This document shows positions 35,330 through 63,577 of a stretch of DNA of 64,000 nucleotides, one piece after another. The notes beneath the pieces are model-generated. The model had not been told where the DNA came from. It made no database searches and was given only the letters and a program-made list of their open reading frames with translations. A program made the translations under genes and the position numbers. Numbering within the stretch: position 1 is the first letter of the stretch; the number at the start of each line of letters is the position of its first letter. Source of the stretch: Oscillospiraceae bacterium (GTDB taxonomy: Bacteria; Bacillota; Clostridia; Oscillospirales; Acutalibacteraceae); contig JAISJQ010000055.1 of NCBI GenBank assembly GCA_031261445.1, positions 45,864 to 109,863 of the forward strand, in the 5' to 3' direction.

Positions 35330-35616
35330 CCCTTTGTGAAGTTTGCGGAAGTTTGCGACGGAATAAAATTCCAATCACCCCCATAAAAATGCGTTATGCG
35401 TGGCAGAAAGCGAGGAAGTGGGCAAAATGTGAAAAAAAAATGAAAAAAACTTCTCTTTTTTCCAAAATAGCAACAACTTAGGTATCGAAATGGTGTATAA
35501 TGCTCATTGAAGAGTTATCACTCGTGGCAACTTTGGATAAAACGCGCGAAAAGGTTTCAAAATTGTTGCAAGTGTAATCCGAACAACACGCACATAAAAC
35601 AAGGAGGTCCTAAGAA
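35330..35616 (+). promoter_or_regulatory. A/T-rich leader of the giant-protein gene
   Basis: No gene. TATAAT at 35496-35501 is the best -10, without a good -35; it would give a leader of about 110 bases. A perfect AAGGAGGT (35601-35608) precedes ATG 35617. No riboswitch recognised. Confidence 0.4.
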
Positions 35617-38600
35617 ATGAAGAAATTCTTACGCAAGCTCCCGCGGCGAACATTGAGCATCGTGCTCAGTGTGCTGATGGTGCTCTCTGCGGTGGCCGTT
35701 GTGGTCCCGCTGATGGCCTTGTCGGTCGTTGCGGCCGTCGCCGACGGCGACACGAACTCCAACGCCTGGGCAACAGCTGCAGACGATGTGGAAAAGATCG
35801 TCTGGCTACACGAAACCCTGCCTGGTGCTGCGGCCAACCAGTACGCAAACAACTGGTTCCAAGCTGCGGGTACCTATGCGGCGGCGCAGTACTTTAACTA
35901 CAATCCAAGCAAGAACGTCTATGACACGACAGTTTTTAACGGCGGCGCCCATGGTTCTCCGAACGATAACGCCACCTCTATGGCGAAATCTGAGGACGGA
36001 CTTGAGGCGAACGAAACGGCGCTGATGAACACTGCTAAGAGCAGATTGACCGGCGACAGAGGCGTGCTGACCTTTTCCAAAAGTGTGGCTGAGCAAACGC
36101 GCCTGAAGAACTATCGCCCGCAAATCACCAACATGGGCAACTTGAAGGATGAAGTTGTTGTTTCGGCTAGCTTCACGGTCACGGGTGCTGAAGGTGCTTG
36201 GACCGAACGCTGGGATTCTACCAGCGGCAACGACACTGTAAAGAACGCCCAAGGCTATGCGTGGGTGTATATGTCCGCCAAGTCTGCTCTTACCCAAACC
36301 AAAACGGGCGTTATCCCCAAGGCCATGCACGTGTATGACGACTACTTTGTGCCTGCCATCTTGGATCGTAGCCCCGTTGGGGAAACGCTTGAAACCATTC
36401 AGGGGTGGCTTGACGAGGCACGGGCGGTCATCAACACCTTTGAAGCCACTTCTGGCATAGACCTAGATTGGGCCTACGGCATCATCGGCGAGAAAAAGGG
36501 CAAAGTTGATGCCTACATCGACCTACTTGAGTTCACTCTGACGCTCCCGCAGTATGTGGAGATGGCCGAGTGGTTCCAAGGTCCTGCGGTTGGTCAAACC
36601 GTTGTTATCAACGAGAATCTCAACCAAACAAACTATAACCGCCCGGCCGGCTACGAACCGCGCACCTTCGAGAACGACGTTGCTTACTACTATGGCGACG
36701 ATGCGAGCGCGAAGTACACGCTGGCGGAGCTGGAGGCTCTGCACCTGTTGGCCGTGAGCAAGCTTGCCCAACTGCGTGCCATTGAGAGCAAACTCACGCA
36801 GTGGTCTGTGCTGGTTGCTACAGCAGCTTTGGGCGGCGTGAACATTGATCTGGACTGGGATCAGGTCTGGATTGACAACCTTTACAAAACCGTTGTGCAG
36901 TTCAAACTACACAATATGCTGGACGAAGCGAAGCTCTTGATTGCTGAATCCGATAATCCCCACGAGGGCGTGGCGGACAACTTGAATCCAGACGATCCCG
37001 CAGAGCCTTTTGTGGATTCCGACTATCGCCTGTCGACACAGCGCGTTGTGACCATCAAAGAGATTTTGTCTGGTGACATTGATGCACTCAATGCGTACCG
37101 CGCACAAAGCTTGGACGCGATTGTGGATGCCATCTTTGCGGGTGACTATACGCAAACCAAACTCACCGAGCGCAGAGACTTGCTCAACCATGAGTACGGT
37201 TACCGCGTGGAACTGGGCTTCAGTGAAGAAGTTTGGTACAGCTACCGCGACTTCTTTACCCCGATGTCCGCCAGAAATTGGGCGACCACCAAGCCCGCCG
37301 ATGCCATCGCGCTCTACCTGAGCGAGGAAGAGCACGGCAACGCACCGAAACCCGCCTATAAGGGTTACCAAAAGAACGTCATCGCCTATAACGCGCTGAA
37401 GGCACAGGCACAAGCCGCCCTGAGTGCGCAAGAATTCGGTGAGATCTACGGCGCGTATTCCGAAGACGTGATTATCCCCACGGAAAACATCATCCTCAAT
37501 GGTATTGCGCTGAGCCTGACGAGCTATGTCTACACAGGTATGCAGATCATTGCCAACCTTGAGGAAGCAAACAAAATCCACATTGCCGGCGACACCATTG
37601 ATGTCATCTCTTGGGCGACATTTGCCCAACTGGAAGAAGTCATCAAAACCATTGATGTGGGCGTCTATGAGTTCCTGAAAGACACAAGCAACCTGTGGCG
37701 CTTGGGCACAGCCGACCCGGCCTATACCGCGACAGAAACCGAAACCGATTATCTGTGGCTCATCAACGTTGTGCTCAAGAAGATCAACGACTTTAAAGAT
37801 CATCCTGAGAACTACTATGTATCGACCGATCTGGAAGCCCCCGAGCGTCCCGCCACAGCAAATGACTTTGCGCCCGGGCACAACTACACCGCCACGGACG
37901 ACAAGATGCTCACCGTGCTCAACAAGCTCGACACCTTCCTGTCCACCGGCGACCTGAACAGCCTGCCGCTCGATGCGCTGGGTCTGGATCTCAATTCCAT
38001 TCTCGGCGGTTTAGGCGCAGCTCCCAGTGGCGCACTCAACGTGCCCTCTATCCTCCAAGCCGTTCTGGAAGGCATGCTCCTGAACAACGACACCATCAAC
38101 ATGATCGTTGGCATGGTCTATCCCATGGTTTTGCCGCAATTTGAAAAAGAGTTTAAAAATATTGCGCAACCGAGCATGTTGGACGGCATGGGTGATGGTC
38201 AGATTGTGGAAATCACCCTGCGTCCGTTGCATGACCTGTTTGGCAACAGTGCCTTGAAGGGTCTTCGTTGGACGCAAAACAACGGTCAACTGAACGGCGC
38301 ACCGCCGGCCGACTTCACACTCCCCAACAACACCTTGTCAGATCTGCGTCTGTATCCTGACCTCATGGCCGACGCGCTCGATCCCGTGAAGTTTGCATCC
38401 GCCTACAACGCATTGAAGAAGACGTATAGTGATCACCCAGAACTGAGCACGCCGATCACCATAATGAATAGCAATCCACCCATTTACAACGGCTATTTCT
38501 ATGATCTAGATGTCTGGCACGATGCCAACATCTTTGATTCCAAACTCGGTCGCGATGCGCGAGGCAACCCCATTTTGAATGCGGACGGCGTTGCGGAAGG

Positions 38601-41600
38601 CACCTACACCATTGACTGGGGTCTAGACGGTCTGACCGGCACGGAGTTGCGCACAAGATTTGTGGACGCACTGGGCGCGGCACTCGGCGGTTTGCTCCCG
38701 CTCCTGCGCACCATCTTCGCTGGCGTTTCTTATCAAGGTTTCCACGACAACATTGGTGAAGCGCACGGCTACGCATCCGATAGCCAAGCATCCAACCCCA
38801 TCCCCCTCAACTTGGGACCCTCACGCGGCGGCAACAGCGGCAACTTGGCGCAAGAAGGATTCGATGGGCAAGCAGGAAACATCACCATGTCCGGCATCTA
38901 TCTGAACCTAACCATTCCGCCCATCAAGGGTTACCAAACCCTGCTTACCCCCATCTTCGAGACACTGGCGGGCACGGATTCCGCAATCCTCGACAAGATT
39001 CCAGCCATCACAACGCTGGCCACCAATACGGACTATGGTAAGCCGACCACTGCCCCCGTGCTCAATCGGCGTATTGGTGCAAACGGTGCCAGCGGTAGCA
39101 CGGGACAAAATGAAAGTTCAAGTGGCAACGAAACGCGTAAAGCAGTAGTTTCAGTTGCTATCATCGGTGAGGTGGCATCGGCCACATCTCACCAAGGCAT
39201 TGCAAGTTACTATCGCTATGCCACCAATCCCAACTACACCTATCCAAAGACATCGCTTGCAGTAGGCGCAACGCCGCTGGTCACAGAAACTGCAGTCACC
39301 AAGGCATCGAGAAACTTGGTGGCGGCCATCTTCGACCCAATCTTTGCCTATGTGGATAAACTAGGCGCAGCACCGCTCTCCGTCATTGAAGAGCTCCTCC
39401 CCAACTTGTTCTATGCGCTCAGCTTCAACAAGATTGCTGGCGCACTGGAAGGCTTGGATCTGTCCATCAACATTGACGCCGATGGCTGGTTGCGTTTGGG
39501 CTACCTCCACGCGAACGCCCACAATCAAGTCGTCTTGAACTTGCCCGATGGCACGCTTAAAGAAGGCATTAAGCTATACATTGATGGCACAGGGTGTGCA
39601 AAAGATACAACAGCCAATATCGCTGTTGAAGCCTTGGTCAAGGAAATCAAACCAGTGGAAATGCCCCTGAGCGGCATCATTGCCGATGCCCTCCCCGGCG
39701 GCATTCCCTCCTCTGTGGCTGACCTCATGGCACTGCTCCCGTTGGGTGACATCGGCGACGTTCTGCCGCCCTTCAACCCTGGCCGCATCATGACCTACGG
39801 CGGCGCACAGCCCGGCCCTGGCGGACTGAAGTCTCTCGCCAGTAAGGATCTCGACGGCACGCGTCACTACATCGTGGCCGACAAGCCCGACGTGACCCAC
39901 GCCATGCTCGGCTCTATCCTGAGCAAATTTGCCCCGGCCATGAACACCCCCGAAGGTCTCGCGGCCATCGTGGAACTCATTGTCCCGCAGGCATACGCCA
40001 ACATCCCCGTCAATTTCACCGACCCAACGTTCAACACTGTCTCTTATCCCGATTGGTGGGCAGGTGCTGACACAGCGCAAGATCCCGAAAAAGAAGCTGG
40101 CGCAATCGCCGACGGACAGTATATCCTCGACAACGCCAACGGTATCCTTGATTTGGCGTGGCAGATCTTCTTCCAGAAGAGCGGCACGTTCGGCGATGGA
40201 CTGAAGGCAATCATCAACGATCTTGCTCTGGGCACAATTTCCTTCTCGGAACTCGTGGATCAGATCCAAGGCTTCCTGACGGAAGGCGAACTGGCCGCAA
40301 CGCTCGATAGCTTCTCCAGCCTGCTCTCCTCCGCAATTGTCATCGGCGGTCAAACCGTTGACGTGGCGGCGATCATTGATGGCCTGAAGAACTACGACGC
40401 ATCTGCAGTCACCGTGACCAACCTCGAAGAGCTCGTGGATGCCCTGATCGACCTCCTCGCGCCCCTCGGTCCTGTGTTCGACTTCATCTTCTCTGGCAAA
40501 GATCTCGAGATTTTGGACATCGACGCTGGCAATGGCAGCGAAACCTTGGTCAAAGCGCTAGGCTACAACGGCTATGCTGACGGTCTGTTCTACATTCTGG
40601 AAGCATTGGCGAAACCCCTCGGCGTTGCTGTGACCGCCCCGGCGGCCTATGCGGCACTGGGCACAAATTACGCAGGCAAACTGCACGCCATCCTCGATCC
40701 GATCCTCGGCGTGCTCCAACAAGTGGAGACCGACCCGGTTGGTAGTGTTCTGGATCTCGTCCCGAACCTGCTCTACTTCATCTCTAAACCTGCCAACGAA
40801 GCCGATGGCACGTCTAGCCCGCTGGAATTGGCACTCAACGGTGCGTTCCACTCCATCTTCGTGCTCCTCGACACACTCGCCCCGCTGTTCAACGTCTCTG
40901 ACCTCCTCGCCGACATCAGTCTACCAGAAGGCATCAGCCTCATTGGCGGCGTGAAACTCGACGTGCAAGCGTTGATTGGCGAGCTGCCGTTTGAACTGAG
41001 CAAACTGCTCGTTGGTGTCCTCGACACGAACGACCGCACAGTCATCACCGACCGCGTTGGATTGCTCTTCGCCATCCTTAAAGAAGTGGGTGCGCTGGCC
41101 TTCGTCACCGACAACGGCTACGAAGCCCTCACCTACCTCATCCAATACGAGAAGTTCCCGAACCCCGAATTGGTGGATTACGCAGTAGCCGCGGCGGCTG
41201 TCAATGTCAATCGTGCGGATCACGCATGGCTGACGGATACAGAGCTCAACTACATCCGCGCGAATGCGGACGGCGTCATCAACTGGGCATGGGATTACCT
41301 GCTCTACTCCAACCCGGCTGGCAAACCTTGGCTCGAAGACATCGTCAATGGTGCTATCGGCGGCGGGTTTGAGCTCAAAGCCACACTGTCCGAAACCGTT
41401 CAGGCACTCTTCGGCAACGACTTCCTCGTGAAGGATAACCTCGACCTGATCGTCGACATCGTCAAGGGCCTGAAGGCCACACTCGATGGCATCGAGATCC
41501 CGGCCATTAAGGTTGAAGCGTTGGGTCTGGAAAGCGACAGCTCGCTGACACTCACCTCGCTGATTAAGAAGTTGCTGACCGTCGGCGGCGAAGGCGTTGA

Positions 41601-44007
41601 CCTTGACGCAATCTTCGCACCGTTCGTGGCCTACGACCCGGCCACAGTGACCATCGACAACCAAGCGCAGTTTAAGGCAAAACTCTACGAACTGCTTTCA
41701 CCGGCCGTGCCGCTCCTGCTCTTCTTCCTCACCGGAAAAGACATCAAAGTCATCGACGACGCTGGCGTGAACAACGGCAATGGATTCATCACCGCATTCG
41801 GTTACGAAGGCTACAAGAATGGCTTGCTCCCGATCCTCGCTGGTCTGGGCGCTGACATCGACGGTTACCTCGCAACCATCATGGACTACGACACCTTCGC
41901 CGATTCGGCAACAACGAACACCCAGCGCTTGGAAGCGATCGTTGAACCGATTCTGTTCTTCCTGAACAAGTTGACCTCCGCGCCGACGGATACCCTGTTG
42001 CACACGTTGCCCAACCTGCTCTACCTCATCAGCGACGCAAACGGCGACTCCATCCTCTCGCAGTCTGTCAACAATTTGGTCTACACGATTTCCGTCCTCG
42101 CACCGTATATCGCACCGCTTCAGTCCATCTGGGAAGGCACAGTTGCCCCGATCCTCGAGAGCATCGGTGGGCTCAACGCAACCGTGGCCGACCTGCTCGG
42201 CGGATTCCTTGATGCCGATGTGGCACAGTTCATCGTTGGCACAGTGACCGAATATGACGCTTCCCTGAAGTCTATCGGCAAAGCCAACAATGCCAGCTAC
42301 GTTAAAGTGGACCTGAACGGCTTGCTCGTGCAAGTGCTCGACCTGTTGGGCGCACTGGATATCATCGAAGAAAACGGTTTGACCGGTCTCGTGTATCTGT
42401 TGCAACCCGGCGATCCCGCCAAACCTGGCCCGATTGTCTATCCTGCACTCAACAACGGCGATCCTGGTGGGGAGCGCAACGAATGGTGGACGAAGGCACA
42501 CGAAACCTATGTCATCGACCGCGCGGATGACTTTGTCAACAAACTCTGGACTGTCCTCTTCGGTGTACCGTTTGGTTCGCTGGATCTGGAAGGCGCAACG
42601 GACGGGGCCGCAAGCGAAGCGAGCACCTTCCTGACCAACCTGCTGGGCAGTGCAGTTTACACGCAAGACAACTTCGACATGATCGTTGGCGGCTTGCAAG
42701 GCGTCATCCCCGAACTCGCCAATTCCGAAGTCCTGCCCGGTCGCACGCTTGGCGACATCCTCGCAGAAGCTGTCACCGTGGGCAATAAGCACATCGATGT
42801 GCTAACCATCCTCAACAAGTTGGCCGCTTGGAAGCAAACTGCACCTGTCGACAACCAGAACGGTTTCGTCACGCAACTCGTTTCCTTCCTCGCACCGCTG
42901 ATGCCGATCCTCGATTTCGTCCTGGCTGGCGAAGACCTCCGTATCCTCCAAGGCCGCTCAGACATCGACAACGGTAAGGGCTTTGTCAAGGCGTTTGGTT
43001 ACGATGGTTACCAGTACGGCTTGATCCCGATCTACGAAGCACTGCTCAAACCGCTCGGTAAAGAGAGTGCTATCCTAACAAAAGATCAGTGGGTCAACCT
43101 GCCCACCGATGAACAAAGACTGCAAGCAGTCCTTGACCCGATCCTCTTGGCAGTGGAACAACTCCTGACCGATCCTGTCAACACACTGCTCACACTCCTG
43201 CCGAACATTGCCTACTTCATCAATGATGCAAACGGCGATTCCCTGCTCCAACAGAGCCTTGACCGCATCCTCTTCTCCATCAACACGGTTGTTGAGGAAG
43301 CACTCCTGACCGATACCCTCCAAGGTGCAATTGGCCAGTGGCCCATCAAGATCTCTGTCAGCGCGATCCTCGAAGACCTCATCGGTGGTTTGAACCTGCC
43401 GATCTCTGCGGCTGGCGTCATCGAAGGCCTGATCATCGGTGAGTTGAAAGACTACACCTCTGCATCCGGCGCACCGGCGAAGTATATCGTGTCGAAAGAC
43501 AATGGCGACCGCGGCGCAGTCCTGACGGCCATCCTCCGCATCGCAATCAACGCGGTTGTGACGGAAGAAAACCGCCTGAAGGTTCTCGACCTGCTCGTGA
43601 ACACGCTGAACCTGAGCGGCACTGCCTACGCAGTTGTCAACCAAACGCTCAAAGATATTCTGGTGTTCTTTAAGCAGGGCGGCACAACGCAATGGGGCAA
43701 CAAGGTTTACGGCGCGGACATCGTGCTCAACCTCGTGTTCGTCCTCGCGTATGGCGCTGACAAAGTCGTCTGCTCGTTCTACGACAACTGGCAAAATGTC
43801 AATGCCGTAGTGCGCACGACTTACGAGAAGTTACTTGCCTCGAACAAGTATGATTCCTCGTTTGCCCAACACGCCCAGGCGTTCACAGATCGCTATATCA
43901 AAGAGATCTTCACGCCGAAGGAAGGCTTTGCCCAGTTTGGATTCATCTCGTTCTTCCAAAACATCTTCGCTTGGTTCAAAAAGATCTTCGGATACTTCTT
44001 TGGCTAA
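35617..44007 (+). CDS. Giant secreted repeat protein (2796 residues), unknown function
   Basis: Signal peptide (residues 1-42: MKKFLRKLPRRTLSIVLSVL, then a hydrophobic run to AVADGD), then about 2750 residues outside the cell. From about residue 1200 the protein is built of diverged units of roughly 400-450 residues. Markers of a unit: G-K/E-DL..L, then GYxGYxxGL (residues 1649, 2062, 2461), then DPIL...PNLLYFI (prolines 1262, 1716, 2132, 2529). Units are rich in short Leu/Ile helices, suggesting an all-helical solenoid. No LPXTG, SLH, dockerin or catalytic motif recognised. The end FFQNIFAWFKKIFGYFFG is aromatic and cationic. Perfect ribosome site, own terminator; about 13% of the window. 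Confidence 0.8.
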   Translation: MKKFLRKLPRRTLSIVLSVLMVLSAVAVVVPLMALSVVAAVADGDTNSNAWATAADDVEKIVWLHETLPGAAANQYANNWFQAAGTYAAAQYFNYNPSKNVYDTTVFNGGAHGSPNDNATSMAKSEDGLEANETALMNTAKSRLTGDRGVLTFSKSVAEQTRLKNYRPQITNMGNLKDEVVVSASFTVTGAEGAWTERWDSTSGNDTVKNAQGYAWVYMSAKSALTQTKTGVIPKAMHVYDDYFVPAILDRSPVGETLETIQGWLDEARAVINTFEATSGIDLDWAYGIIGEKKGKVDAYIDLLEFTLTLPQYVEMAEWFQGPAVGQTVVINENLNQTNYNRPAGYEPRTFENDVAYYYGDDASAKYTLAELEALHLLAVSKLAQLRAIESKLTQWSVLVATAALGGVNIDLDWDQVWIDNLYKTVVQFKLHNMLDEAKLLIAESDNPHEGVADNLNPDDPAEPFVDSDYRLSTQRVVTIKEILSGDIDALNAYRAQSLDAIVDAIFAGDYTQTKLTERRDLLNHEYGYRVELGFSEEVWYSYRDFFTPMSARNWATTKPADAIALYLSEEEHGNAPKPAYKGYQKNVIAYNALKAQAQAALSAQEFGEIYGAYSEDVIIPTENIILNGIALSLTSYVYTGMQIIANLEEANKIHIAGDTIDVISWATFAQLEEVIKTIDVGVYEFLKDTSNLWRLGTADPAYTATETETDYLWLINVVLKKINDFKDHPENYYVSTDLEAPERPATANDFAPGHNYTATDDKMLTVLNKLDTFLSTGDLNSLPLDALGLDLNSILGGLGAAPSGALNVPSILQAVLEGMLLNNDTINMIVGMVYPMVLPQFEKEFKNIAQPSMLDGMGDGQIVEITLRPLHDLFGNSALKGLRWTQNNGQLNGAPPADFTLPNNTLSDLRLYPDLMADALDPVKFASAYNALKKTYSDHPELSTPITIMNSNPPIYNGYFYDLDVWHDANIFDSKLGRDARGNPILNADGVAEGTYTIDWGLDGLTGTELRTRFVDALGAALGGLLPLLRTIFAGVSYQGFHDNIGEAHGYASDSQASNPIPLNLGPSRGGNSGNLAQEGFDGQAGNITMSGIYLNLTIPPIKGYQTLLTPIFETLAGTDSAILDKIPAITTLATNTDYGKPTTAPVLNRRIGANGASGSTGQNESSSGNETRKAVVSVAIIGEVASATSHQGIASYYRYATNPNYTYPKTSLAVGATPLVTETAVTKASRNLVAAIFDPIFAYVDKLGAAPLSVIEELLPNLFYALSFNKIAGALEGLDLSINIDADGWLRLGYLHANAHNQVVLNLPDGTLKEGIKLYIDGTGCAKDTTANIAVEALVKEIKPVEMPLSGIIADALPGGIPSSVADLMALLPLGDIGDVLPPFNPGRIMTYGGAQPGPGGLKSLASKDLDGTRHYIVADKPDVTHAMLGSILSKFAPAMNTPEGLAAIVELIVPQAYANIPVNFTDPTFNTVSYPDWWAGADTAQDPEKEAGAIADGQYILDNANGILDLAWQIFFQKSGTFGDGLKAIINDLALGTISFSELVDQIQGFLTEGELAATLDSFSSLLSSAIVIGGQTVDVAAIIDGLKNYDASAVTVTNLEELVDALIDLLAPLGPVFDFIFSGKDLEILDIDAGNGSETLVKALGYNGYADGLFYILEALAKPLGVAVTAPAAYAALGTNYAGKLHAILDPILGVLQQVETDPVGSVLDLVPNLLYFISKPANEADGTSSPLELALNGAFHSIFVLLDTLAPLFNVSDLLADISLPEGISLIGGVKLDVQALIGELPFELSKLLVGVLDTNDRTVITDRVGLLFAILKEVGALAFVTDNGYEALTYLIQYEKFPNPELVDYAVAAAAVNVNRADHAWLTDTELNYIRANADGVINWAWDYLLYSNPAGKPWLEDIVNGAIGGGFELKATLSETVQALFGNDFLVKDNLDLIVDIVKGLKATLDGIEIPAIKVEALGLESDSSLTLTSLIKKLLTVGGEGVDLDAIFAPFVAYDPATVTIDNQAQFKAKLYELLSPAVPLLLFFLTGKDIKVIDDAGVNNGNGFITAFGYEGYKNGLLPILAGLGADIDGYLATIMDYDTFADSATTNTQRLEAIVEPILFFLNKLTSAPTDTLLHTLPNLLYLISDANGDSILSQSVNNLVYTISVLAPYIAPLQSIWEGTVAPILESIGGLNATVADLLGGFLDADVAQFIVGTVTEYDASLKSIGKANNASYVKVDLNGLLVQVLDLLGALDIIEENGLTGLVYLLQPGDPAKPGPIVYPALNNGDPGGERNEWWTKAHETYVIDRADDFVNKLWTVLFGVPFGSLDLEGATDGAASEASTFLTNLLGSAVYTQDNFDMIVGGLQGVIPELANSEVLPGRTLGDILAEAVTVGNKHIDVLTILNKLAAWKQTAPVDNQNGFVTQLVSFLAPLMPILDFVLAGEDLRILQGRSDIDNGKGFVKAFGYDGYQYGLIPIYEALLKPLGKESAILTKDQWVNLPTDEQRLQAVLDPILLAVEQLLTDPVNTLLTLLPNIAYFINDANGDSLLQQSLDRILFSINTVVEEALLTDTLQGAIGQWPIKISVSAILEDLIGGLNLPISAAGVIEGLIIGELKDYTSASGAPAKYIVSKDNGDRGAVLTAILRIAINAVVTEENRLKVLDLLVNTLNLSGTAYAVVNQTLKDILVFFKQGGTTQWGNKVYGADIVLNLVFVLAYGADKVVCSFYDNWQNVNAVVRTTYEKLLASNKYDSSFAQHAQAFTDRYIKEIFTPKEGFAQFGFISFFQNIFAWFKKIFGYFFG
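40498..43290 (+). repeat. Three long internal repeats of the giant protein
   Basis: Protein-level repeats: GYNGYADGL, GYEGYKNGL, GYDGYQYGL at 413- and 399-residue spacing, each followed about 70 residues later by the PNLLYFI-type block. A fourth, partial copy has only the PNLFYAL block at residue 1262. Confidence 0.8.
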
Positions 44008-44036
44008 GAAAGTGTTGACGGTTTGACCGACAAACG

Positions 44037-44071
44037 AGCGCCCCGCACCCAACTTGGGTGCGGGGCGCTTT
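44037..44071. terminator. Strong hairpin between convergent genes
   Basis: AGCGCCCCGCACCC-AACTT-GGGTGCGGGGCGCT, perfect 14-bp stem; only two Ts follow on the plus strand. Confidence 0.75.
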
Positions 44072-53101: not shown

Positions 53102-53272
53102 GTGTTAAGCGATTTGGAACACACCCACGGCAAAGCATTGAAACAACTGGATTTTTTGAAGTCCGAAAGCGAAAATCTCTTGGAGTTCTCTCCTGAAGTT
53201 CTCTCCGATTTCCATCGAGCGATTTTAGGAGTTCTCAATATCTCACTTGGAGAGGTACCGAAGTGGTCATAA
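53102..53272 (+). pseudogene. Short ORF fragment between the tRNA copies
   Basis: GTG 53102 opens 56 codons (VLSDLEHTHGKALKQLDFLK...) that run into the intact tRNA. The composition is protein-like, A/T-rich and unrelated to flanking genes. Probably the end of a gene of a lost mobile element. Too short for the ORF track; no function assigned. Confidence 0.3.
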
Positions 53273-53337
53273 CGGGGCGGTCCTGAAAACCGTTAGCGCG
53301 CAAGCGCACATGGGTTCGAACCCCATCCTCTCCGCCA
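53249..53337 (+). tRNA. tRNA-Ser (anticodon UGA)
   Basis: 89 bases with encoded CCA. Acceptor GGAGAGG/CCTCTCC, discriminator G, long variable arm (GCGCGCAAGCGC), T-arm GGGTTCGAACCCC. The anticodon loop is CCTGAAA, which puts TGA at positions 34-36 but C at position 33 where U is almost universal; the broken copy has the normal T. Class II form and G73 fit serine. Confidence 0.88.
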
Positions 53338-53340
53338 CTT

Positions 53341-53391
53341 GCAAAGCCGCAGAATAGCAGGGTTTCTTGCTTGTTCGGCGGCTTTGCTTTT
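53341..53391 (+). terminator. Terminator after tRNA-Ser
   Basis: GCAAAGCCGC ... GCGGCTTTGC with a 27-base loop, then TTTT. Confidence 0.7.
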
Positions 53392-53475
53392 GCCCAGAAA
53401 AACGCGATTTTGCGGGCGTTTTTTGAGGACGTTGGAGAGAGCTTTGACCAAATTGAAGAGAAGTCCATGCCTGTT

Positions 53476-54645
53476 TTAGGACACCACAGATAGTGCCGCA
53501 CACAGTCCCTGCTCCATTGCCTGCGCGGAGTTCAGCTTGGAGTTGTAGTCTAGGTGGGCGTAGATGTTCGCCGTGGTGGAGAAGTCGCTGTGCCCTAGCC
53601 ACTCCTGAATTTGCTTCATGGGGACACCATTGGCCAGTAGGAGTGATGCACAGCTGTGCCGCAGGTCGTGGAAGCGGATGCGGCGCAGACCGTGTTTTTC
53701 CAGCAACTTTGGGAACGCCTGCGTGACATAGTCTGGGCTGAACCGGTCGCCCATCTGGTTCACGCAGATGTAGTCGCGGTAGGTTTCGTTGTAGCATTTG
53801 CCGCACAGTTCACGGAATTGTGCCTGTTGCGCCTGCACAGCCAACAGCTTTTCGCGAAAGACGGGCACCAAGGGCAGCGTGCGCATACTGGATTTGGTCT
53901 TTGTGCTGTCCTGTGCGCTGATTTGCCGCTTGCCGTTCAGGTTGTAGCTCGTGACGGTGTGGTTGATGGTCAGGGTGTTTTGCGCAAAGTCAATGGCATC
54001 CCAGCGCAACCCCACCACCTCGCTGCGGCGCAGTCCGTAGAATCCGCCCAGCAGGACTGGCACTTCCAAGAGTGTTCCTTTGCTGATTGCAAAGAGCCGC
54101 TCCATCTCGCTGCAGTCGTAGAAACTCGCTTTGAATCGCTTGATTTTTGGACGTTCCACCTTGTCGGCGGGATTGGTCTCAAGCAAGTCCATCTTCACGG
54201 CGTATTTCAAAGCCTTGTGGATTACTGCGTGATAGTGAATGACCGACAGTGCCTTGATGCGCTCCAACTGAATCAGATAGAACCGCTGGATGTCTTGAGG
54301 TCTCAAGTCGTCCAACATAACCATCTTGTCGCCGAAGTATGGGGCGAGGGTGCTTTTGACGATTTGGCTGTAGGAAGCAAAGGTGGTTGGCGCAACAGTG
54401 GTTTTGACCACGTCAAGCCAATTGACAAGAAAGTCTGAAAAGAGCATAGACTGCTCCCACGCCTTGCGACCGTCTGCTGAGAACGTCTTTCTGGCTTCTG
54501 CGAGTTTGGTTTCGGCTTTCTTTTTGTTGCCCTTTACGGTCAACCCTGTGGGAATCCACTTCGTTTTGCGCTTGTTGAAAGCATCGTTGTAACTCAAAAC
54601 GATGTAGAAAAAGCCTTTCTTTTCTTGTAAGTGTCCAGCTACCAT
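53476..54645 (-). CDS. Tyrosine-type site-specific integrase
   Basis: 389 residues from ATG 54645 (AAAGGAGG). N-terminal arm-binding domain (about 1-60), core-binding SAM-like domain (about 65-165), and catalytic domain with Arg206 (GLRRSEVVGL), HDLRH (His326, Arg329), His352 (LGHSD) and nucleophile Tyr362 (ANIYAHLD). Tn916/phage-type integrase. It lies 138 bases from the 3' end of tRNA-Ser and points towards it, the standard position for an element integrated at that tRNA. A small HTH gene follows upstream in the same orientation. Confidence 0.93.
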   Translation of the reverse strand: MVAGHLQEKKGFFYIVLSYNDAFNKRKTKWIPTGLTVKGNKKKAETKLAEARKTFSADGRKAWEQSMLFSDFLVNWLDVVKTTVAPTTFASYSQIVKSTLAPYFGDKMVMLDDLRPQDIQRFYLIQLERIKALSVIHYHAVIHKALKYAVKMDLLETNPADKVERPKIKRFKASFYDCSEMERLFAISKGTLLEVPVLLGGFYGLRRSEVVGLRWDAIDFAQNTLTINHTVTSYNLNGKRQISAQDSTKTKSSMRTLPLVPVFREKLLAVQAQQAQFRELCGKCYNETYRDYICVNQMGDRFSPDYVTQAFPKLLEKHGLRRIRFHDLRHSCASLLLANGVPMKQIQEWLGHSDFSTTANIYAHLDYNSKLNSAQAMEQGLCAALSVVS

Positions 54646-54765
54646 GTGTAGCCTCCTTTCGATTTTTGACATGTGTGTGCGTATCCGAACACCTGCAATC
54701 ACTACTCCATAAGTTTAACAGGTGCGGCCGCAGGTGTCGAATGTGCAAATTGGTTTTTTGCAGAT

Positions 54766-54969
54766 TTAAGCAACCATCAATCCCAAATACTTCAACAAGT
54801 TGAGTTTGGGGATGCGAAAGAAGCGTCCGATTTTGATGTGCTTGATTTTTCCCTCGTGCAGTAGCTGGTAGCAGGTCTTGGTAGAAACGCCGAGGACACC
54901 ACTCAAGTCATTTACGGTCAGCAAGTCTGGCAGCTTTTTCAGCACATATTGATAGATCTCAGCACACAT
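54766..54969 (-). CDS. Excisionase-like helix-turn-helix protein
   Basis: 67 residues with the MerR/excisionase 'DNA-binding domain' pattern: LLTVNDLSGVLGVSTKTCYQ, LLHEGKIKHIKIGR, FRIPKLNLLKYL. Such proteins direct excision by the adjacent integrase. Its first 11 bases overlap the end of the MazF gene, so toxin and recombination factor are translationally linked. Confidence 0.8.
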   Translation of the reverse strand: MCAEIYQYVLKKLPDLLTVNDLSGVLGVSTKTCYQLLHEGKIKHIKIGRFFRIPKLNLLKYLGLMVA

Positions 54970-55324
54970 GCTGCGTCCTCCTCGCCATCCCCAAACTCAG
55001 CGCCAGCGCGGCCTCCACCCGTGCCATGCGCCGCTCGTCCAGCCAGCCGCAGTATGTTCCCAAACGGGACTTGTCCAACGTGCGCAGCTGTTCCAACAGG
55101 ACGATGGAATGTTTAGATAGCCCCGCAAAGCCTGTGAGATCAATGTGGGTGGGCAGGGGGTTCTTCTCTCGGCTGGTGATGGCGGCCACGATGACGGTGG
55201 GGCTGTGTTTGTTTCCTACGTCGTTGGAGAGAATGAGCACGGGGCGGTTGCCGCCCTGCTCCGAGCCTGTGATGGGGTCGAGGTCGGCGAAGTAGATTTC
55301 GCCGCGATGCATTTCGTCTAACAT
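54959..55324 (-). CDS. MazF/PemK-family endoribonuclease toxin
   Basis: 121 residues from ATG 55324 (GGAGG at 10 bases). RGEIYFADLDPITGSEQGGNRPVLILSND is seen at the start in two family blocks (RGEIYFADLDP; QGGNRPVLILSND), then VIVAAITS and the C-terminal LSKHSIVLLEQLRTLDKSRL, all MazF. The toxin cuts single-stranded RNA. No MazE-like antitoxin gene precedes it; the overlapping downstream gene is an excisionase-like HTH protein instead. Confidence 0.85.
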   Translation of the reverse strand: MLDEMHRGEIYFADLDPITGSEQGGNRPVLILSNDVGNKHSPTVIVAAITSREKNPLPTHIDLTGFAGLSKHSIVLLEQLRTLDKSRLGTYCGWLDERRMARVEAALALSLGMARRTQHVC

Positions 55325-55580
55325 TTTTGAATTCCTCCGTTTGATTGCATGATTAAGTACCACTCCGCGCAGCGGGATGGTTTCTTTCTGCTTCTCTTTC
55401 TTTTTCTAAAGAAAGAGAAGGACAGGCAGCAGACGGCGGGGGCGAACCGCGCCACGAGGACTTGCACCTCCAACGGACATGCCTATGCCCGTCCGCATTC
55501 AGCGGGTGTATCATTATCCCCAACGTGCAGAAACAACTGGACGCCGCCCAGTTTCAGCCCAGAGCTTCGCTCGCCCAATG

Positions 55581-55654
55581 CAGGCGTGAGGTGTGAGGGC
55601 ACAGGACTGAGGTTTTGTTTTCCTCATGCCTGAATCCTGTTCCCTTATTCCTCA
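55581..55654. repeat. Family D heptads, inverted pair, inside the mobile element
   Basis: CAGGCGTGAGGTGTGAGGGC and inverted CCTCATGCCTGAATCCTG...TTCCTCA. The only heptad repeat noticed in the 53-64 kb accessory part. Confidence 0.6.
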
Positions 55655-55744
55655 ATAGGGGTCATGGCGAGAGATGGACTGCCGACACGTTGGGAACGTA
55701 TCTGCTGCCTGGTTTATTCGATTGTCAAAGAACGATGAGCGGGA

Positions 55745-55781
55745 GAGCCAATGTCCATTTCGTTTGCACGTTGGCTCTTTT
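55745..55781 (+). terminator. Orphan terminator-like hairpin
   Basis: GAGCCAATGT / ACGTTGGCTC, 10 pairs, 13-base loop, then TTTT on the plus strand, where no gene precedes it. Confidence 0.4.
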
Positions 55782-55830
55782 ACCTCTCACCCTATAGCCG
55801 TTGGGAGGCTACCTTTTGACAACCTGTGCG

Positions 55831-56235
55831 CTAAACTTCCACAAACGACGCTTTGATTCGTGCCATCCTTTTATAGATCGCCTGACGTGTCACGCCCAGT
55901 GCCTCGGCGATTTCTGCGTGTGTGTACCTGCCTCCGACCAACAATGTGAGCACCTTTTTGTCCCCATCCGAAAGCGCGTCTATCTGCGCGGTAAGCGCTT
56001 GGTTGTTGATTTCGTCCAGCCAGTCGCTTGGGTGTTCGGGGGCACTTTGCGTAAGCAAATCCTCGTAGGTGTCCGTGTGCTCATAGAACGCGCGGTCGCG
56101 CTTGAATTGCGCCCACTCGAAGTCGTGTAATTCCTGTATGTCTGTCGCGCACATTCCCGCCGCGCGGCACTCGTGTTCCTGCTGTGCCCACTGTTCCAGA
56201 AACAGCTTCTTTGCCAGTCCGTTGTTGTATGCCAT
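55831..56235 (-). CDS. Sigma-70-like/HTH regulator of the mobile element
   Basis: 134 residues. C-terminal HTH of the sigma region 4 type: LTAQIDALSDGDKKVLTLLV, GGRYTHAEIAEALGVTRQAI, YKRMARIKASF (about 78-134). The N-terminal part is acidic and helical without a region 2. Similar small sigma-like proteins regulate transfer genes in Tn916-like elements. GGAGG precedes ATG 56235 but lies in a long hairpin (56243-56287). No adjacent conjugation genes are seen. Confidence 0.7.
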   Translation of the reverse strand: MAYNNGLAKKLFLEQWAQQEHECRAAGMCATDIQELHDFEWAQFKRDRAFYEHTDTYEDLLTQSAPEHPSDWLDEINNQALTAQIDALSDGDKKVLTLLVGGRYTHAEIAEALGVTRQAIYKRMARIKASFVEV

Positions 56236-56242
56236 TGTTTTT

Positions 56243-56287
56243 CCTCCGAATTTGAATTTGGATAGCTCTCAAATTCAAGTTCGGAGG
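56243..56287 (-). promoter_or_regulatory. Hairpin that buries the ribosome-binding site of the sigma-like gene
   Basis: In the minus-strand mRNA CCTCCGAACTTGAATTTG and CAAATTCAAATTCGGAGG pair over 17 of 18 positions around a 9-base loop. The GGAGG at its 3' end is the Shine-Dalgarno of the gene starting at 56235. Confidence 0.6.
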
Positions 56288-56305
56288 GGCGCGTATTCTG
56301 GTCAA

Positions 56306-56335
56306 TAAAAAATCCTTTCAGCCAAAGCGGAAAGG
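56306..56335 (-). terminator. Second terminator behind the zinc-finger gene
   Basis: Minus strand CCTTTCCGC-TTT-GGCTGAAAGG followed by ATTTTTTATT. Confidence 0.6.
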
Positions 56336-56340
56336 AAATC

Positions 56341-56420
56341 AAAAACAAAAGAGCCGTATGAAAATCGGGCAGACTGCCGTTGAAAAGTCGCCTAGTCGGG
56401 CAACTGTTTTCATACGGCTC
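56341..56420 (-). terminator. Terminator with perfect 14-bp stem
   Basis: GAGCCGTATGAAAA / TTTTCATACGGCTC with a 42-base loop; on the minus strand TTTTGTTTTT follows. Confidence 0.7.
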
Positions 56421-56480
56421 GTAGGAAGTCTGCGATTTTCATCGGCTCCAAGGCACGGTTCGTTATTCAATTGTCGGGTT

Positions 56481-56729
56481 TTACGCGGTCAGCAGTCGGT
56501 ATCGGATCGTACCGTTGCGGCACAGCACCACGTTGTAGATGGCTTCGCGCTTGCATTTTCGGCACTTGGCTTGAATGTGCCCGCGGGCATCGTCGAAAAC
56601 ATGCACGGCGCAGGCACCGCAAAAGTGACAGCGAAGCACCTTCTTCGGTCTATTCTCCGCGCCAACGCTGTGTTTGCGGATTCTTTGCAAGACTGCGGCG
56701 GAAAGGAATGGATTAGCTGGCTCTTGCAC
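56481..56729 (-). CDS. Small zinc-finger protein (KTR/Com-like)
   Basis: 82 residues from GTG 56729 (GGGAGGAAT); the ORF-track start lies inside the upstream gene. C-terminal zinc ribbon CHFCGAC ... CRKCKREAIYNV (two CxxC pairs), resembling the Cys-rich KTR and Mu Com families found on mobile elements, probably RNA- or DNA-binding. Overlaps the end of the ImmA gene by 17 bases, so it is the second gene of that transcript, which ends at the tandem terminators. Confidence 0.65.
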   Translation of the reverse strand: MQEPANPFLSAAVLQRIRKHSVGAENRPKKVLRCHFCGACAVHVFDDARGHIQAKCRKCKREAIYNVVLCRNGTIRYRLLTA

Positions 56730-57408
56730 AGATTCCTCCCTGCTGTGAGTGGGTTTCCACAAGCCCCAACTCACGCAAACGGATGAGCAGCGCGTTCGTG
56801 GACACGCACAAATCTTGCGCCAAATACCGTGCCCCAATGTAGTCCTCACGGGCAATGCCCCTGTCGGTCAGCTGGATTTTGCGGCGTCCCCACCATCGCG
56901 CATAGCCACACCGCACGAGCGGTTCTGGCATCAGCAGGACTGCCCCCAACGCGTTTGCCTGCCACTCCTCCCAATCGCTCGCCGTGTGCAGTTGGCGGCA
57001 GGAGTATGTTTGCCCCGCCACAACGCTGCCTCGTCGGCTATGTCCGAGTTGCGCCTCTTCCAGACGATACAAAATCTGGTGGGAACACTCATGGGCAAGC
57101 GTGAATCGCCGCCGACCGCGGCAGTAGATCGGGCGCAGGGAGTCGTCCAGCAACACGGTGTCTTGCGGAACGGTGATCGTTTCGTCTTTCCCGCGAATCT
57201 TTAGTTCCAGCTGGATGCTCTGAAAGGTGGTCAGCCCCAGTATCTGCCCAGTGTCGGAGAGCCGTTGGTACTGTGGGTTCAGCCCGAGGTACTCTGTGGC
57301 CAAACCCTCAATGTTCACGGAAGCCCAGCCCTCGGGCATGGTCTGGTAGAAGTCGGCAAGCACTTCTATTCCGATTCGCTCGATATCTTTCTTGGATAGG
57401 TATAGCAT
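56713..57408 (-). CDS. ImmA/IrrE-family metallopeptidase
   Basis: 231 residues from ATG 57408 (AAGGAGG). Zinc motif HECSH (106-110) in RRFTLAHECSHQIL and the third ligand region in WEEWQANALGAVLLMP. ImmA cleaves the repressor of ICEBs1-type elements after DNA damage, releasing integrase genes. C-terminal HTH-like part (about 175-225). No ImmR/cI-type repressor gene is adjacent, which is odd; the target may be the sigma-like or the zinc-finger protein. Confidence 0.85.
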   Translation of the reverse strand: MLYLSKKDIERIGIEVLADFYQTMPEGWASVNIEGLATEYLGLNPQYQRLSDTGQILGLTTFQSIQLELKIRGKDETITVPQDTVLLDDSLRPIYCRGRRRFTLAHECSHQILYRLEEAQLGHSRRGSVVAGQTYSCRQLHTASDWEEWQANALGAVLLMPEPLVRCGYARWWGRRKIQLTDRGIAREDYIGARYLAQDLCVSTNALLIRLRELGLVETHSQQGGICARAS

Positions 57409-57828
57409 GAGTGGTGAACCTCCTTGAAATGATGCAGCAATTGGTACATTTGTTCTGATGCCTGTATAGTATAGAACATTTGGTCGAGTTTGTCAATGGT
57501 GAACTTTGGGAATTCATGTGGAGGTTTTTGTCGCTCCTAATCTTTGGTCGCTGTTGAGAAGTTATGGATGACGATTGGTTCGCCTTAATGCACAAGAACT
57601 AAACCACTATCGCCTTTAGACGGTAGTGGTTTAGTCATGCTTATGACGTTTTTCCCATGTGATAGTCATACTGTAATAGATTTGAATTTCCGTGTGTTGT
57701 GTGTCAATTGAAATTCGTTAAATTATTTGCACTAATGTGATATAGTTTTAGATTGCCGTAGATTGCTAGAATCAAACGAGGTTGTAAACACCACCAGTCC
57801 TTGAGGCAAACAAAATCGAAATTGCGTT
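57409..57828. other. 420-base A/T-rich gap with promoter and dyad; no gene
   Basis: Contains the ImmA promoter (57468-57496), half-sites TTTGTTC/GAACATT around it, and a 14-bp dyad CTAAACCACTATCG/CGGTAGTGGTTTAG (57599-57634) without a T-run. No ORF or RNA gene recognised. Confidence 0.5.
57468..57496 (-). promoter_or_regulatory. ImmA-gene promoter with possible operator
   Basis: Minus strand TTGACA (57491-57496), 17-base spacer, TATACT (57468-57473). TTTGTTC (57450s) and GAACATT (57473-57480) form an inverted pair around the -10. Confidence 0.6.
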
Positions 57829-59079
57829 TCATCCTTCTTTATTCAGTTCCTCCATCGTCACACCACGATTATGACGAATCGGCTTCCAAGTTGTGCGCGG
57901 GAAAATCAATGCCGAAAGCACAACAACACCATAGGAAAGCAAGAAGATTGGAAATGTTAAGATTGCCATTCCGGTGGGTCTCTTCGTTTTCTTATCAAAA
58001 AGAAAAAGGGCTGGGATTTGGTGAACCAGAAAGAGTGCGAGCATTGCACTTAACAATAATAGACCAAAACCATTTAGTATTTGCTCGGAATTTAGGGTTG
58101 TCACGATGATATGCGCGATAAGTCCAACGGTAGCTAAGCCCAGCATTGGCAGGGTTGCTAGGCACATCATGGCATCGAACAAACGCAACCTGTAGCCTTT
58201 GGTGGATAAACCATGTGCCATTTTCCTGCCCTCGTACCTAATGCACTGAAACGTACCATTAACCCAACGACGACGTTGGGTTAATGACTGCGAAAACTCG
58301 GTAGGTTGGTCATCATAAAACACCGCTTCGTGAGCATATATCACGCGCCGACCTGCGATGATATTTTGCAGCGAAAACTCGGAATCTTCGCTCATGGTTT
58401 TGGTCTGCCAGCCTGTTTCTTTGATGATGTCGATGCAGAAACAGAACCCAGTACCACCCACAAAAGCAGAAAGTCCCAAACGTGTGCGCGGCAAATAATA
58501 AAACCGACAAAGTGTGCTCCAATAGATTGCATAGTAGCCGCTGACAAGGCTGTCGCGGGGATTTTTTGCACAACGGTAACCTTGTACAATTTGGTGTCCA
58601 GCACACAGTTGGCGATTCATTTCACCTAGGAATTCAGCATCCGCTAAATTATCCGCATCAAATACACACATCGCATCATATTTTTCGGGATATTCTTTTA
58701 ACAAAATGTCGAAAATCCAATGAAGGGCAAACCCTTTCCCGACTTCTCTATTATTAAAACGCTCAAATGTCAGTGCACCACAGGAGCGCGCGACTTCCGC
58801 TGTGTAATCCGTACAATTATCTGCAACTACGATTATATCAAACAATTCGCTTGGGTAATTTTGCTGTTTCAAACTCTCAATTAGGTAGGCAATTACGTCT
58901 TGTTCATTTCGCGCCGCAATAATGATGGCAAAACGATGTTGTCTGTTAGGGATTATTTCAGCCTTTTGAGGACGCTTTAATCCAAACAGAGCAATAAAAA
59001 GCTGATAAAATAGATACAACGAAACCGCAACGCTAATAGCATTCCGAGTGATCTGCAGCGTCATCAAAAAAACATCCAT
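57829..59079 (-). CDS. Membrane glycosyltransferase, family GT2
   Basis: 416 residues; ATG 59079 is better placed for GGAG than 59085. One N-terminal helix, GT-A domain (about 50-270) with AARNEQDV, VADNCTDYT, the DxD in VFDADNLAD, GGTGFCF, EDSEFSLQ and QRRRWVNGT, then three to four helices. The ED and QxxRW motifs are those of processive enzymes that make and export polysaccharide (cellulose/hyaluronan/PNAG-like). Last gene of the A/T-rich minus-strand set; follows the next gene after 10 bases. Product unknown. Confidence 0.85.
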   Translation of the reverse strand: MDVFLMTLQITRNAISVAVSLYLFYQLFIALFGLKRPQKAEIIPNRQHRFAIIIAARNEQDVIAYLIESLKQQNYPSELFDIIVVADNCTDYTAEVARSCGALTFERFNNREVGKGFALHWIFDILLKEYPEKYDAMCVFDADNLADAEFLGEMNRQLCAGHQIVQGYRCAKNPRDSLVSGYYAIYWSTLCRFYYLPRTRLGLSAFVGGTGFCFCIDIIKETGWQTKTMSEDSEFSLQNIIAGRRVIYAHEAVFYDDQPTEFSQSLTQRRRWVNGTFQCIRYEGRKMAHGLSTKGYRLRLFDAMMCLATLPMLGLATVGLIAHIIVTTLNSEQILNGFGLLLLSAMLALFLVHQIPALFLFDKKTKRPTGMAILTFPIFLLSYGVVVLSALIFPRTTWKPIRHNRGVTMEELNKEG

Positions 59080-59089
59080 TTCCATTCTC

Positions 59090-60046
59090 CTATAGCGTTT
59101 CTTTTAGTTCTCGATAAAATTTGCGCATAATGGCGGGTTCGTCTTTACTTATCTGTTGCAGTGCAATACAGATATTTTCTACGGTTTTTTGTTTGTTGCA
59201 TCTACTTATATTGTATTTCAATGCGCAGCTTTGTATTGCTTTCACAATGTTCAATAACTTTTGATATTCCAATGCTGCGGTGCTTTCTTTTACTAGTGCG
59301 CACATCATATCTATAATCAATTGCTTGTGCTCTTGCAAGACCCTAAAGGGGCGTAAATCGAATAGTTCGCCAGTTCCGATATGTTCTCTGCGAAACATCA
59401 CAGCATATTTAGCGCAGGCACAGGCATTGAAGCTTTTTGGCAACGCATTATGTGCGTAGAAAAAGATATCACGCTTTACCTTTTTCACGTTTAGCGTTGG
59501 TGGAGTATAGTGCTCTGGCAACCAAAAGAAGTGGTGGGACATATTGTTTTTTTTGTAACCGAAATCAGTACTGGCTGGTGGAAATGCTTGTGCAACATCG
59601 TCGTAGCTTATTTGAATGGTTTTGTATTCAAATGTATGGCAGGACGTATCAAGTACATAGCCAGCCGCAGTGAACTCTCGATTTCCATCATCGAAGCCGT
59701 AAATCAGCCAATCATGATACCACTCGCGGTCAAACAGAACATTGGTAATGTGCTTGGCATTGAGCACAAGCACGGCATACTTACCTGCCTGTATGCCTGC
59801 GCGTACCCGTTGAACGACATCGAGCGCGGTAGAATCGAAATACTCGTGTTCGAATTGCTCTTTGGCATAGAATTTAGCTTGATAACTCAGTGGCAGGTGT
59901 GAATTTTCATAACGCAAGGTCAAGTAGTGATTATATAGCACTCCCGAAAGGTCGCACCCATGGGCAGAGAGGACACTAAAGTAGTAGGCGAGGTAGGTGT
60001 AGACACGGATGGGGGAATTGATGACAATGGGGAGGATAGCATTCAT
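59090..60046 (-). CDS. Unrecognised protein with weak BtrH/C39-like features
   Basis: 318 residues, no signal peptide or membrane helix. The stretch HDWLIYGFDDGNREFTAAGY followed by YKTIQISYDDVAQAF recalls the N-terminal domain of BtrH and related cysteine-peptidase-fold proteins in peptide or aminoglycoside gene clusters (His, then Y-G-F/Y-D-D). The usual catalytic Cys is not obvious near the N-terminus (SAHGCDLSG is a candidate). GAGG precedes ATG 60046. Sits directly before the GT2 gene. Function uncertain; could be an acyl transferase-like helper. Confidence 0.4.
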   Translation of the reverse strand: MNAILPIVINSPIRVYTYLAYYFSVLSAHGCDLSGVLYNHYLTLRYENSHLPLSYQAKFYAKEQFEHEYFDSTALDVVQRVRAGIQAGKYAVLVLNAKHITNVLFDREWYHDWLIYGFDDGNREFTAAGYVLDTSCHTFEYKTIQISYDDVAQAFPPASTDFGYKKNNMSHHFFWLPEHYTPPTLNVKKVKRDIFFYAHNALPKSFNACACAKYAVMFRREHIGTGELFDLRPFRVLQEHKQLIIDMMCALVKESTAALEYQKLLNIVKAIQSCALKYNISRCNKQKTVENICIALQQISKDEPAIMRKFYRELKETL

Positions 60047-60157
60047 TTGATAACCTCGTTACACACATTTTGAAATAGAACCAACCACCCCCACGTGCTG
60101 CCCACGTATTGGGCACTCATGTGCGAGTTTGTTTGGCTATATTCTTGCGCTTATTTA

Positions 60158-60586
60158 CTAGTCAACCTTTTTATTTTGGCTTTCCAGTGTTTTTTGCATA
60201 AATTCGTCTAGCTTTTCTTTAAAGAATAAGCGGTAGGTGTCCTTAATTGGGTTTCCACTTTCATCTGTATTTCCTGTATCATACTCCAAAGTAACATAAG
60301 TACCTTCGAGTAGCCCTGCTTTAAGCAATTCATTAATGACATCAGCCCCGTTATATAATCCCAAATATTCATTTGCATCCCCTTCGTGCATATATTCAGG
60401 AGTAGCCTCTATCGTCGCCGTGCTGGTACTTGTACCACCGGATACGTAAATCTTGCTGACCTCTTTACCGATAATTGAACCGACTACGGATGCAGCAACA
60501 ATCAATCCGATGCTCAAACACAAGCAGAAGATGACGGTTAGTATTCCTTTTTGGAAAAAGGATGATTTGAAGATTTTGTAACTCAT
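60158..60586 (-). CDS. Single-pass membrane protein with outside HTH-like domain (copy 1)
   Basis: 142 residues from ATG 60586 (GGGGAAAG). Basic N-terminus and one helix (about 12-38) place the C-terminus outside. After a Ser/Thr linker, the domain EYLGLYNGADVINELLKAGL ... YRLFFKEKLDEFMQ follows the excisionase/MerR-type HTH pattern. Shares layout with the neighbour 60644-61045. Unknown role. Confidence 0.5.
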   Translation of the reverse strand: MSYKIFKSSFFQKGILTVIFCLCLSIGLIVAASVVGSIIGKEVSKIYVSGGTSTSTATIEATPEYMHEGDANEYLGLYNGADVINELLKAGLLEGTYVTLEYDTGNTDESGNPIKDTYRLFFKEKLDEFMQKTLESQNKKVD

Positions 60587-60643
60587 AATCTTTCCCCATG
60601 CTTTCATAGTCAGATCGAGCATTTACATAGCAAGATAGAGCGA

Positions 60644-61045
60644 CTATTTTTTGTCTGCGGTGGATGTTTCTTCGGAAAAGAGCTGATCCATGAGTTCAAT
60701 CAATCCATCTTTTTTTATTATTATGTAGTACGCAATAGTATCCTCATATAGATTGTCCTCTGGCACAATGAGAATACACGATTTTTCTAATCGCCCAGAT
60801 TCTATAAATCTTCTGAGCACACTTTCTTCAAGTTTGGTGAAGCTAAGTGCCTGGTTAAAGGTCAAATAGCTTGAGCTGTCGGAGCTGTCGGCAATCGCCA
60901 CATCGAATTGCGTTGGTACTGAGAAACTGGAACTTGCGCTGCCAAGATTGTCCGAAATAGTATAACCTATTATCACTGAACCCGCAATAACGCTAAGGGC
61001 AAGCGCAAAACAGGAAAACAGGATTGCAAAAGACCACTTTTTCAT
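60644..61045 (-). CDS. Single-pass membrane protein with outside HTH-like domain (copy 2)
   Basis: 133 residues from ATG 61045 (GGAGG); the long ORF-track start is upstream leader. One helix (about 5-30), Ser-rich linker, then YLTFNQALSFTKLEESVLRR FIESGRLEKS ... YYIIIKKDGLIELMDQLF, which closely follows excisionase-type HTH sequences (YLTxxEA..., V..LI.SGRL, ...I.K.DL..FL). Charge distribution puts this domain outside the cell, where DNA binding makes little sense; a peptide- or wall-binding role is more likely. Confidence 0.5.
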   Translation of the reverse strand: MKKWSFAILFSCFALALSVIAGSVIIGYTISDNLGSASSSFSVPTQFDVAIADSSDSSSYLTFNQALSFTKLEESVLRRFIESGRLEKSCILIVPEDNLYEDTIAYYIIIKKDGLIELMDQLFSEETSTADKK

Positions 61046-62113: not shown

Positions 62114-62184
62114 TTTGAAATTCTCCTTTAATTTTGATGTTTTTCTTTTTGATATTAGCCGCGACCAGCGGATATGGATGCTTA

Positions 62185-63576: not shown

Positions 63577-63577
63577 T

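Follow-up and report, generated by a model that had tools for sequence, protein, structure and literature searches.

A newly defined helix-rich module builds giant, probably envelope-bound proteins in a family of Clostridia

The stretch of DNA analysed here (64,000 nucleotides of an Oscillospiraceae bacterium, hereafter the window) carries a gene for a protein of nearly 300 kDa, and this raises the question of what such a protein is made of, where it resides and what it may do. A sequence-only reading had described it as a secreted surface protein with new-looking repeats. Its 2,796-residue reading frame was given exactly, being open over all codons, and the ribosome site that it had called perfect is an AGGAGG 9 nt ahead of the ATG (Table 1). 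With this Shine-Dalgarno sequence, a signal peptide and, shortly past the stop codon, a strong terminator hairpin, the ORF at 35617-44007 is a real single-gene unit. The TATAAT further upstream is at most suggestive of a -10 box, since a promoter scan upstream of the gene found no full sigma-70 match. The gene stands by itself: upstream, on the other strand, lies what we take to be an rnf-type electron-transport operon; downstream come an S1-domain gene on the opposite strand and a gene that is presumably holA. From its composition, the mature protein has ~297 kDa and a pI of 4.4, and the giant contains only two cysteines. Homologues of similar layout occur in three species of the same genus.

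Table 1. The giant gene, its expression signals and the regions of its product (positions in the window; residues of the protein)
Feature	Position	Strand	Remark
TATAAT, possible -10 box for a promoter of the gene itself	35496..35501	+	115 nt upstream of the start codon
Shine-Dalgarno AGGAGG	35602..35607	+	9 nt 5' of ATG
Giant-protein ORF	35617..44007	+	open frame of 2796 codons; 2796 aa
Signal peptide MKKFLRKLPRRTLSIVLSVLMVLSAVAVVVPLMALSVVAA, residues ~1-42	35617..35742	+	start matches relative L039
N-terminal region, residues 43-514	35743..37158	+	hardly conserved even inside the genus
Weakly conserved region, residues 515-757	37159..37887	+	phmmer E 1e-7 and weaker
Module copy 1, split by inserts (residues 758-1131, 1216-1455)	37888..39981	+	profile E 1.4e-16, 2.5e-16
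Module copy 2, residues 1497-1851	40105..41169	+	profile E 1.5e-57
Module copy 3, residues 1874-2271	41236..42429	+	profile E 6.6e-65; tree sister of copy 2
Module copy 4, terminal, residues 2293-2670	42493..43626	+	profile E 4.6e-82
Conserved C-terminal domain, residues 2671-2773	43627..43935	+	phmmer against relatives
Amphipathic tail FGFISFFQNIFAWFKKIFGYFFG, proposed membrane tether	43936..44004	+	hydrophobic moment 0.50 at mean hydrophobicity 0.47
Terminator-like hairpin	44036..44071	+	GC-rich 16-pair stem; region z-score -7.7

The repeats had been proposed from two recurring motifs. GYxGYxxGL was found at all three positions given for it (residues 1649, 2062 and 2461), and three of the four sites cited for a PNL-type motif (1262, 1716 and 2132) carry PNLxY, whereas the fourth has the variant PNIAYF. 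No repeats were seen when the giant was compared to itself by BLAST in one piece; when overlapping segments were compared to each other, repeats of ~400 residues appeared with E-values down to 1e-44. One pair of units reaches 156 bits, whereas no score in 200 shuffles exceeded 37 bits, so the repeats are far above chance, and pairwise identity among the units is 33-38%. An iterated profile of 353 positions recovers four module copies, not three: three are full, and the first is diverged and split into halves that cover positions 5-172 and 166-344 of the model, with the PNLFY motif at residue 1262 falling inside it. The repeat units are hence real, and their count, which had been read from motifs, is refined to four. 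Among 42 aligned modules, GYxxGL/I and P(N)xxYF are among the most conserved positions; the giant matches the profile over most of its ~353 positions and carries both of these signatures, which mark the new family.

Is the module a known domain? The giant matched 0 families in Pfam-A and NCBIfam and had no match in PHROGs or among PDB sequences, and 42 modules scanned singly against the family libraries gave scattered chance-level matches, each in one or two members. A unit falling into a Pfam family would have spoken against the novelty of the repeats, and this was searched for and not found. Modelling one unit with AlphaFold, as had been proposed, gave a confident structure from the 42-module alignment (pLDDT 84, pTM 0.84), a mostly helical domain with short hairpins. 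Foldseek with this model found nothing in the PDB (best E 0.55, TM 0.12) and no match below 0.001 in BFVD. A model of 923 residues comprising two modules and the C-terminal end is moderate (pLDDT 69, pTM 0.52), and it too had no Foldseek match below 0.001; its weak matches to HEAT-type helical solenoids (karyopherins, E 0.0065 to 0.1) have TM-scores of ~0.1, indicating generic helix packing and not kinship. As far as the searched libraries go, the repeats are as new as they looked, and the module represents a domain family that had not been catalogued before.

The family has a narrow distribution. The module was found in 66 of the 398 sampled genomes of the same GTDB family of Clostridia. When the order was sampled, it occurred in 3 of 295 genomes, including the window's own and one of the same family; in a sample of the class (391 genomes), there was, besides the own genome, one weak match, in a 74%-complete assembly. 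The module is thus nearly confined to one GTDB family and, because it is present in just 22 of its 135 sampled genera, it is an accessory, lineage-specific trait; the important function that had been deduced from the length of the gene and its ribosome site does not follow from them. Module-bearing proteins range from ~850 to 10,643 residues and contain from one to at least 13 copies, and there are several divergent paralogues per genome. The largest are single ORFs, one of 9,406 residues in which 13 full copies were found (G007, contig C13, L047-L048) and one of 10,643 residues (G532, contig C13). The libraries that we searched miss this domain family, although it builds such proteins and is spread over at least 22 genera of gut-type Clostridia.

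A search for related loci with the full giant gave none, and one with a C-terminal alignment gave six named loci. The genome of the window (2 Mb in 75 contigs, about 90% complete), of which about 1.6 Mb was read, holds more relatives beyond the window giant. One (P0002, L009:6693-16223) has 3,176 aa and six modules and runs off the end of contig C57; another (P0003, L010:2-5125) has 1,707 aa, with a signal peptide and an N-terminal part, and runs off the start of contig C26. The two contig ends overlap by 9 bases, with the frame reading across, and paralogues of the corresponding long layout exist in G001 (4,327 aa) and G002 (4,112 aa), for which reasons we infer that the two pieces are probably one gene of ~4,880 residues broken by the assembly. 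Separately, a single stop divides a third giant of G002 (L040:7677-12965) into two neighbouring frames, 845 and 917 residues long; the gene may be decaying, the assembly may be in error, or there may be two genes. The same-genus genomes G001 and G002 appear to correspond to MAGs from the guts of the termites Mastotermes darwiniensis (Md513; PMC12483993) and Glyptotermes (Gsp477; PMC11707648), and the window bacterium is probably a gut bacterium from a termite.

How did the arrays evolve? In a tree of 103 modules, copies 2 and 3 of the giant are sisters (support 100/96), which implies a duplication within this gene, and copy 4 clusters with L228 and with the terminal modules of the genus's other giants (support 100/94). 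In three species, the internal modules of the long paralogue are orthologous position by position; the own genome has one additional copy, of recent origin. Copy number thus changes by internal tandem duplication, with the last module and the C-terminal domain being kept. Arrays that grow from within and retain their end fit selection on length or spacing rather than on catalysis.

The regions flanking the modules differ in their conservation. The signal peptide, at about residues 1-42, bears out the earlier claim of secretion; residues 1-38 are 71% identical to the start of a relative in G001 (L039). Alignments of the closest relatives to the giant begin only around residue 415-515: residues 43-414 have no detectable conservation within the genus, and residues 415-757 are weakly conserved in phmmer comparisons with relatives. 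At the other end, residues 2670-2796 match with E-values of 8.5e-41 to 8.2e-31 within the genus and of 2.4e-11 and weaker in other genera. Conservation of the C-terminal 127 residues and its lack at the N-terminus give the pattern of a fixed base with a variable tip.

The base also tells where the protein may reside. After the conserved C-terminal domain, the giant ends in the tail GFISFFQNIFAWFKKIFGYFFG, which is modelled as a helix with low confidence in the 923-residue model and would turn K, Q, S, K and N to one side and F, I and W to the opposite one. Its AW.KK.F pattern is invariant in 8/8 giants of the genus, and an aromatic/lysine tail is also present in P0002, L038-L043, L049 and L051-L054. 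It occupies the position held in other relatives by anchors: 1) a C-terminal transmembrane helix in L050, L057, L211 and others, with a basic end in L050, L057 and 15 further operon loci; and 2) sortase-type ends in L045 (SPDTGD), L046, L213 and L225. A further relative, L227, has an N-terminal lipobox (SASC). The window giant has neither an LPxTG-type sorting motif, although its genome encodes sortases, nor a transmembrane segment (no 19-residue segment of the mature protein exceeds a mean hydrophobicity of 0.67), nor a lipobox, as its first cysteine is at residue 1327. Unrelated anchors on the same module imply that the envelope address is shared, so the surface location claimed from the sequence gains from the relatives, and envelope location is well supported by these comparisons. 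Relatives of the giant also contain Big_2 repeats and, near the Pfam cut-off, GLUG repeats, both typical of surface proteins. In one giant (L053:4702-15048), GLUG-type repeats just over that cut-off are found in the N-terminal part, so that here the module shares a protein with other surface repeats. The earlier statement that the giant has no recognisable adhesin or anchor domain stands for LPxTG motifs and known adhesin domains, and must be amended for the amphipathic tail in the anchor position. This tail is probably a membrane tether, and the replacement suggests tethering by it in place of the known anchors of homologues.

Similar aromatic/basic tails end two other proteins of the own genome, DFFRKIIEFFQRIFGFFGF in L101:1247-2953 (-) and FDFFVKFADFLRKIPLF in L168:19180-19698 (+). 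We considered the aromatic tail as a widespread sorting signal in this genome and found no support for it, as there were few clear further cases. The statistical link between such tails and signal peptides in the own genome comes from few, partly spurious cases, seven with a signal peptide and two without. Tails of the L101 and L168 type are too few to prove a general signal.

Taking these elements together, we put about even confidence in the reading that the giant is a membrane-tethered, stalk-like surface protein with a variable N-terminal tip, used for attachment. It would be exported by the Sec route and retained on the cell envelope by the amphipathic Trp/Phe/Lys helix at its C-terminus, which would sit in the cytoplasmic membrane at its outer face. 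The four tandem helix-rich modules, of ~350-400 residues each, would build an elongated acidic shaft carrying the fast-changing N-terminal ~500 residues outward, like a stalked adhesin, and the cell could then attach, probably, to food particles, gut protists or neighbouring cells. The shaft is a conjecture, as the geometry between modules comes from the model with a pTM of 0.52, and attachment is one as well, no ligand-binding domain having been recognised.

Giant repeat-built surface proteins are known as a kind; what is new, within the libraries and papers searched, is the module, together with its tail and with the transporter link described below. According to a paper on Apilactobacillus kunkeei (PMC12863079), this Gram-positive insect symbiont also has several extracellular surface proteins of 3,000-8,000 residues (Giant1-5), for which a long, extended shape is predicted, and Giant1-4 have an N-terminal beta-solenoid like that of serine-rich repeat proteins, whereas the window giant has its helix-rich module and no recognised beta-solenoid, the comparison being one of descriptions. 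Sortase-anchored repetitive adhesins share with the giant the signal peptide, the long repeat array and the variable distal end, and the four relatives with sortase-type ends bring the likeness further, but the giant itself has neither their motif nor a known adhesin domain.

A different role for the module is suggested by its commonest small form, a protein of ~850-1,070 aa with two modules and a transmembrane end. In 16/16 such loci, picked by protein length, the gene is directly upstream of a gene encoding an ABC_tran+FtsX protein of ~915 aa, the intergenic distance being -14 to +20 nt in 14 of them. In the module tree, the first and the second operon modules fall into two clades that mirror each other across genera, which argues that the pair is old and was inherited together. 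Among genomes of the family, a full-length orthologue of the transporter (E<1e-200, with a query from a module-positive genome) was found in 21 of 55 that have the module and in 0 of 25 that lack it (Fisher p 9e-5, for genomes that are related and not independent). In MacB/FtsX transporters, ATP binding drives the movement of extracytoplasmic domains (PMC8277102). The module might then do its work outside the cell as part of a type VII (MacB/FtsX-like) ABC transporter system: the two-module protein and the transporter would be a single machine, and the giants would be its clients or expanded partners, handled at the cell surface through mechanotransmission. We regard this, the main rival reading, as unlikely. 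Type VII transporters have extracytoplasmic partners such as MacA; the two-module protein has no NCBIfam match and is thus not recognisably MacA-like. Four other genomes (G002, G003, G012 and G013) have giants and no full-length transporter orthologue was found in them; in G001, a homologue of the transporter occurs, and its examined flank contains no module gene. The window genome also lacks a full-length orthologue, in an assembly about 90% complete where a copy may have been missed, and dependence of the window giant on such a transporter was rejected on this ground. Together, the window genome and G001 suggest that giants do not need the transporter, and the window gene is not its operon partner, standing alone beside rnf-like genes, the S1-domain gene and holA. 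Still, the two-module form suggests that the older role of the module may be transporter-linked. It is rather improbable, in our view, that ATP from the transporter pulls or assembles module arrays outside the cell, that this was the ancestral job and that some lineages expanded the arrays to ~10,000 residues; if it were true, there would be an ATP-driven system for the assembly or movement of giant surface proteins in Gram-positive bacteria. The two-gene operon offers a handle on the function of the family and, if the link is functional, on the connection between giant surface proteins and envelope transporters driven by ATP. One two-module protein, L227:5330-8488 (-), the one with the lipoprotein signal SASC, is encoded in a different context, with no adjoining ABC transporter.

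Two further roles for the array seem very unlikely to us. First, the giant could be a component of a paracrystalline S-layer or coat, with repeats packing laterally; its size, acidity, richness in repeats and secretion would suit this, as would an end of the non-covalent type, and one relative has a sub-threshold SbsC-type match (E 0.009), but no S-layer homology or other cell-wall-binding domain was found in any scanned member, and the spread of sizes and the divergent paralogues in each genome are unlike one abundant coat protein. Second, and with as little likelihood, the modules could bind lipids, fatty acids or another hydrophobic ligand, and the array serve for capture or storage: the module model is mostly helical and the helices are rich in Leu and Ala (up to 17% Leu per 400 residues), but these fit ordinary packing equally well, and the PDB has no structural match to lipid carriers or to anything else. 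That the giant is released and delivered to neighbouring cells as a toxin or antagonism factor would fit its size, its variable end and the several copies per genome, yet this is barely credible, given that the variable end is N-terminal, that no toxin domain was recognised and that relatives are anchored to their producer by transmembrane, sortase-type or lipid ends. The tethered stalk remains our preferred reading of the giant.

Two other features of the window deserve mention. A gene for a NACHT/STAND-type NTPase (18288-20132, minus strand; PF05729, E 1.1e-11) lies in an island of 40% GC in sequence of ~60% GC, between patatin-like and inorganic pyrophosphatase genes; it was likely acquired and possibly serves in defence. 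From 53249 to 64000, the window contains an integrated mobile element that reaches the contig end: a tRNA-Ser is followed by a tyrosine integrase (53476-54702) and an excisionase-like ORF, GC falls to 41-43%, and the element carries a family 2 glycosyltransferase (57829-59085) and a sigma-70-like regulator.
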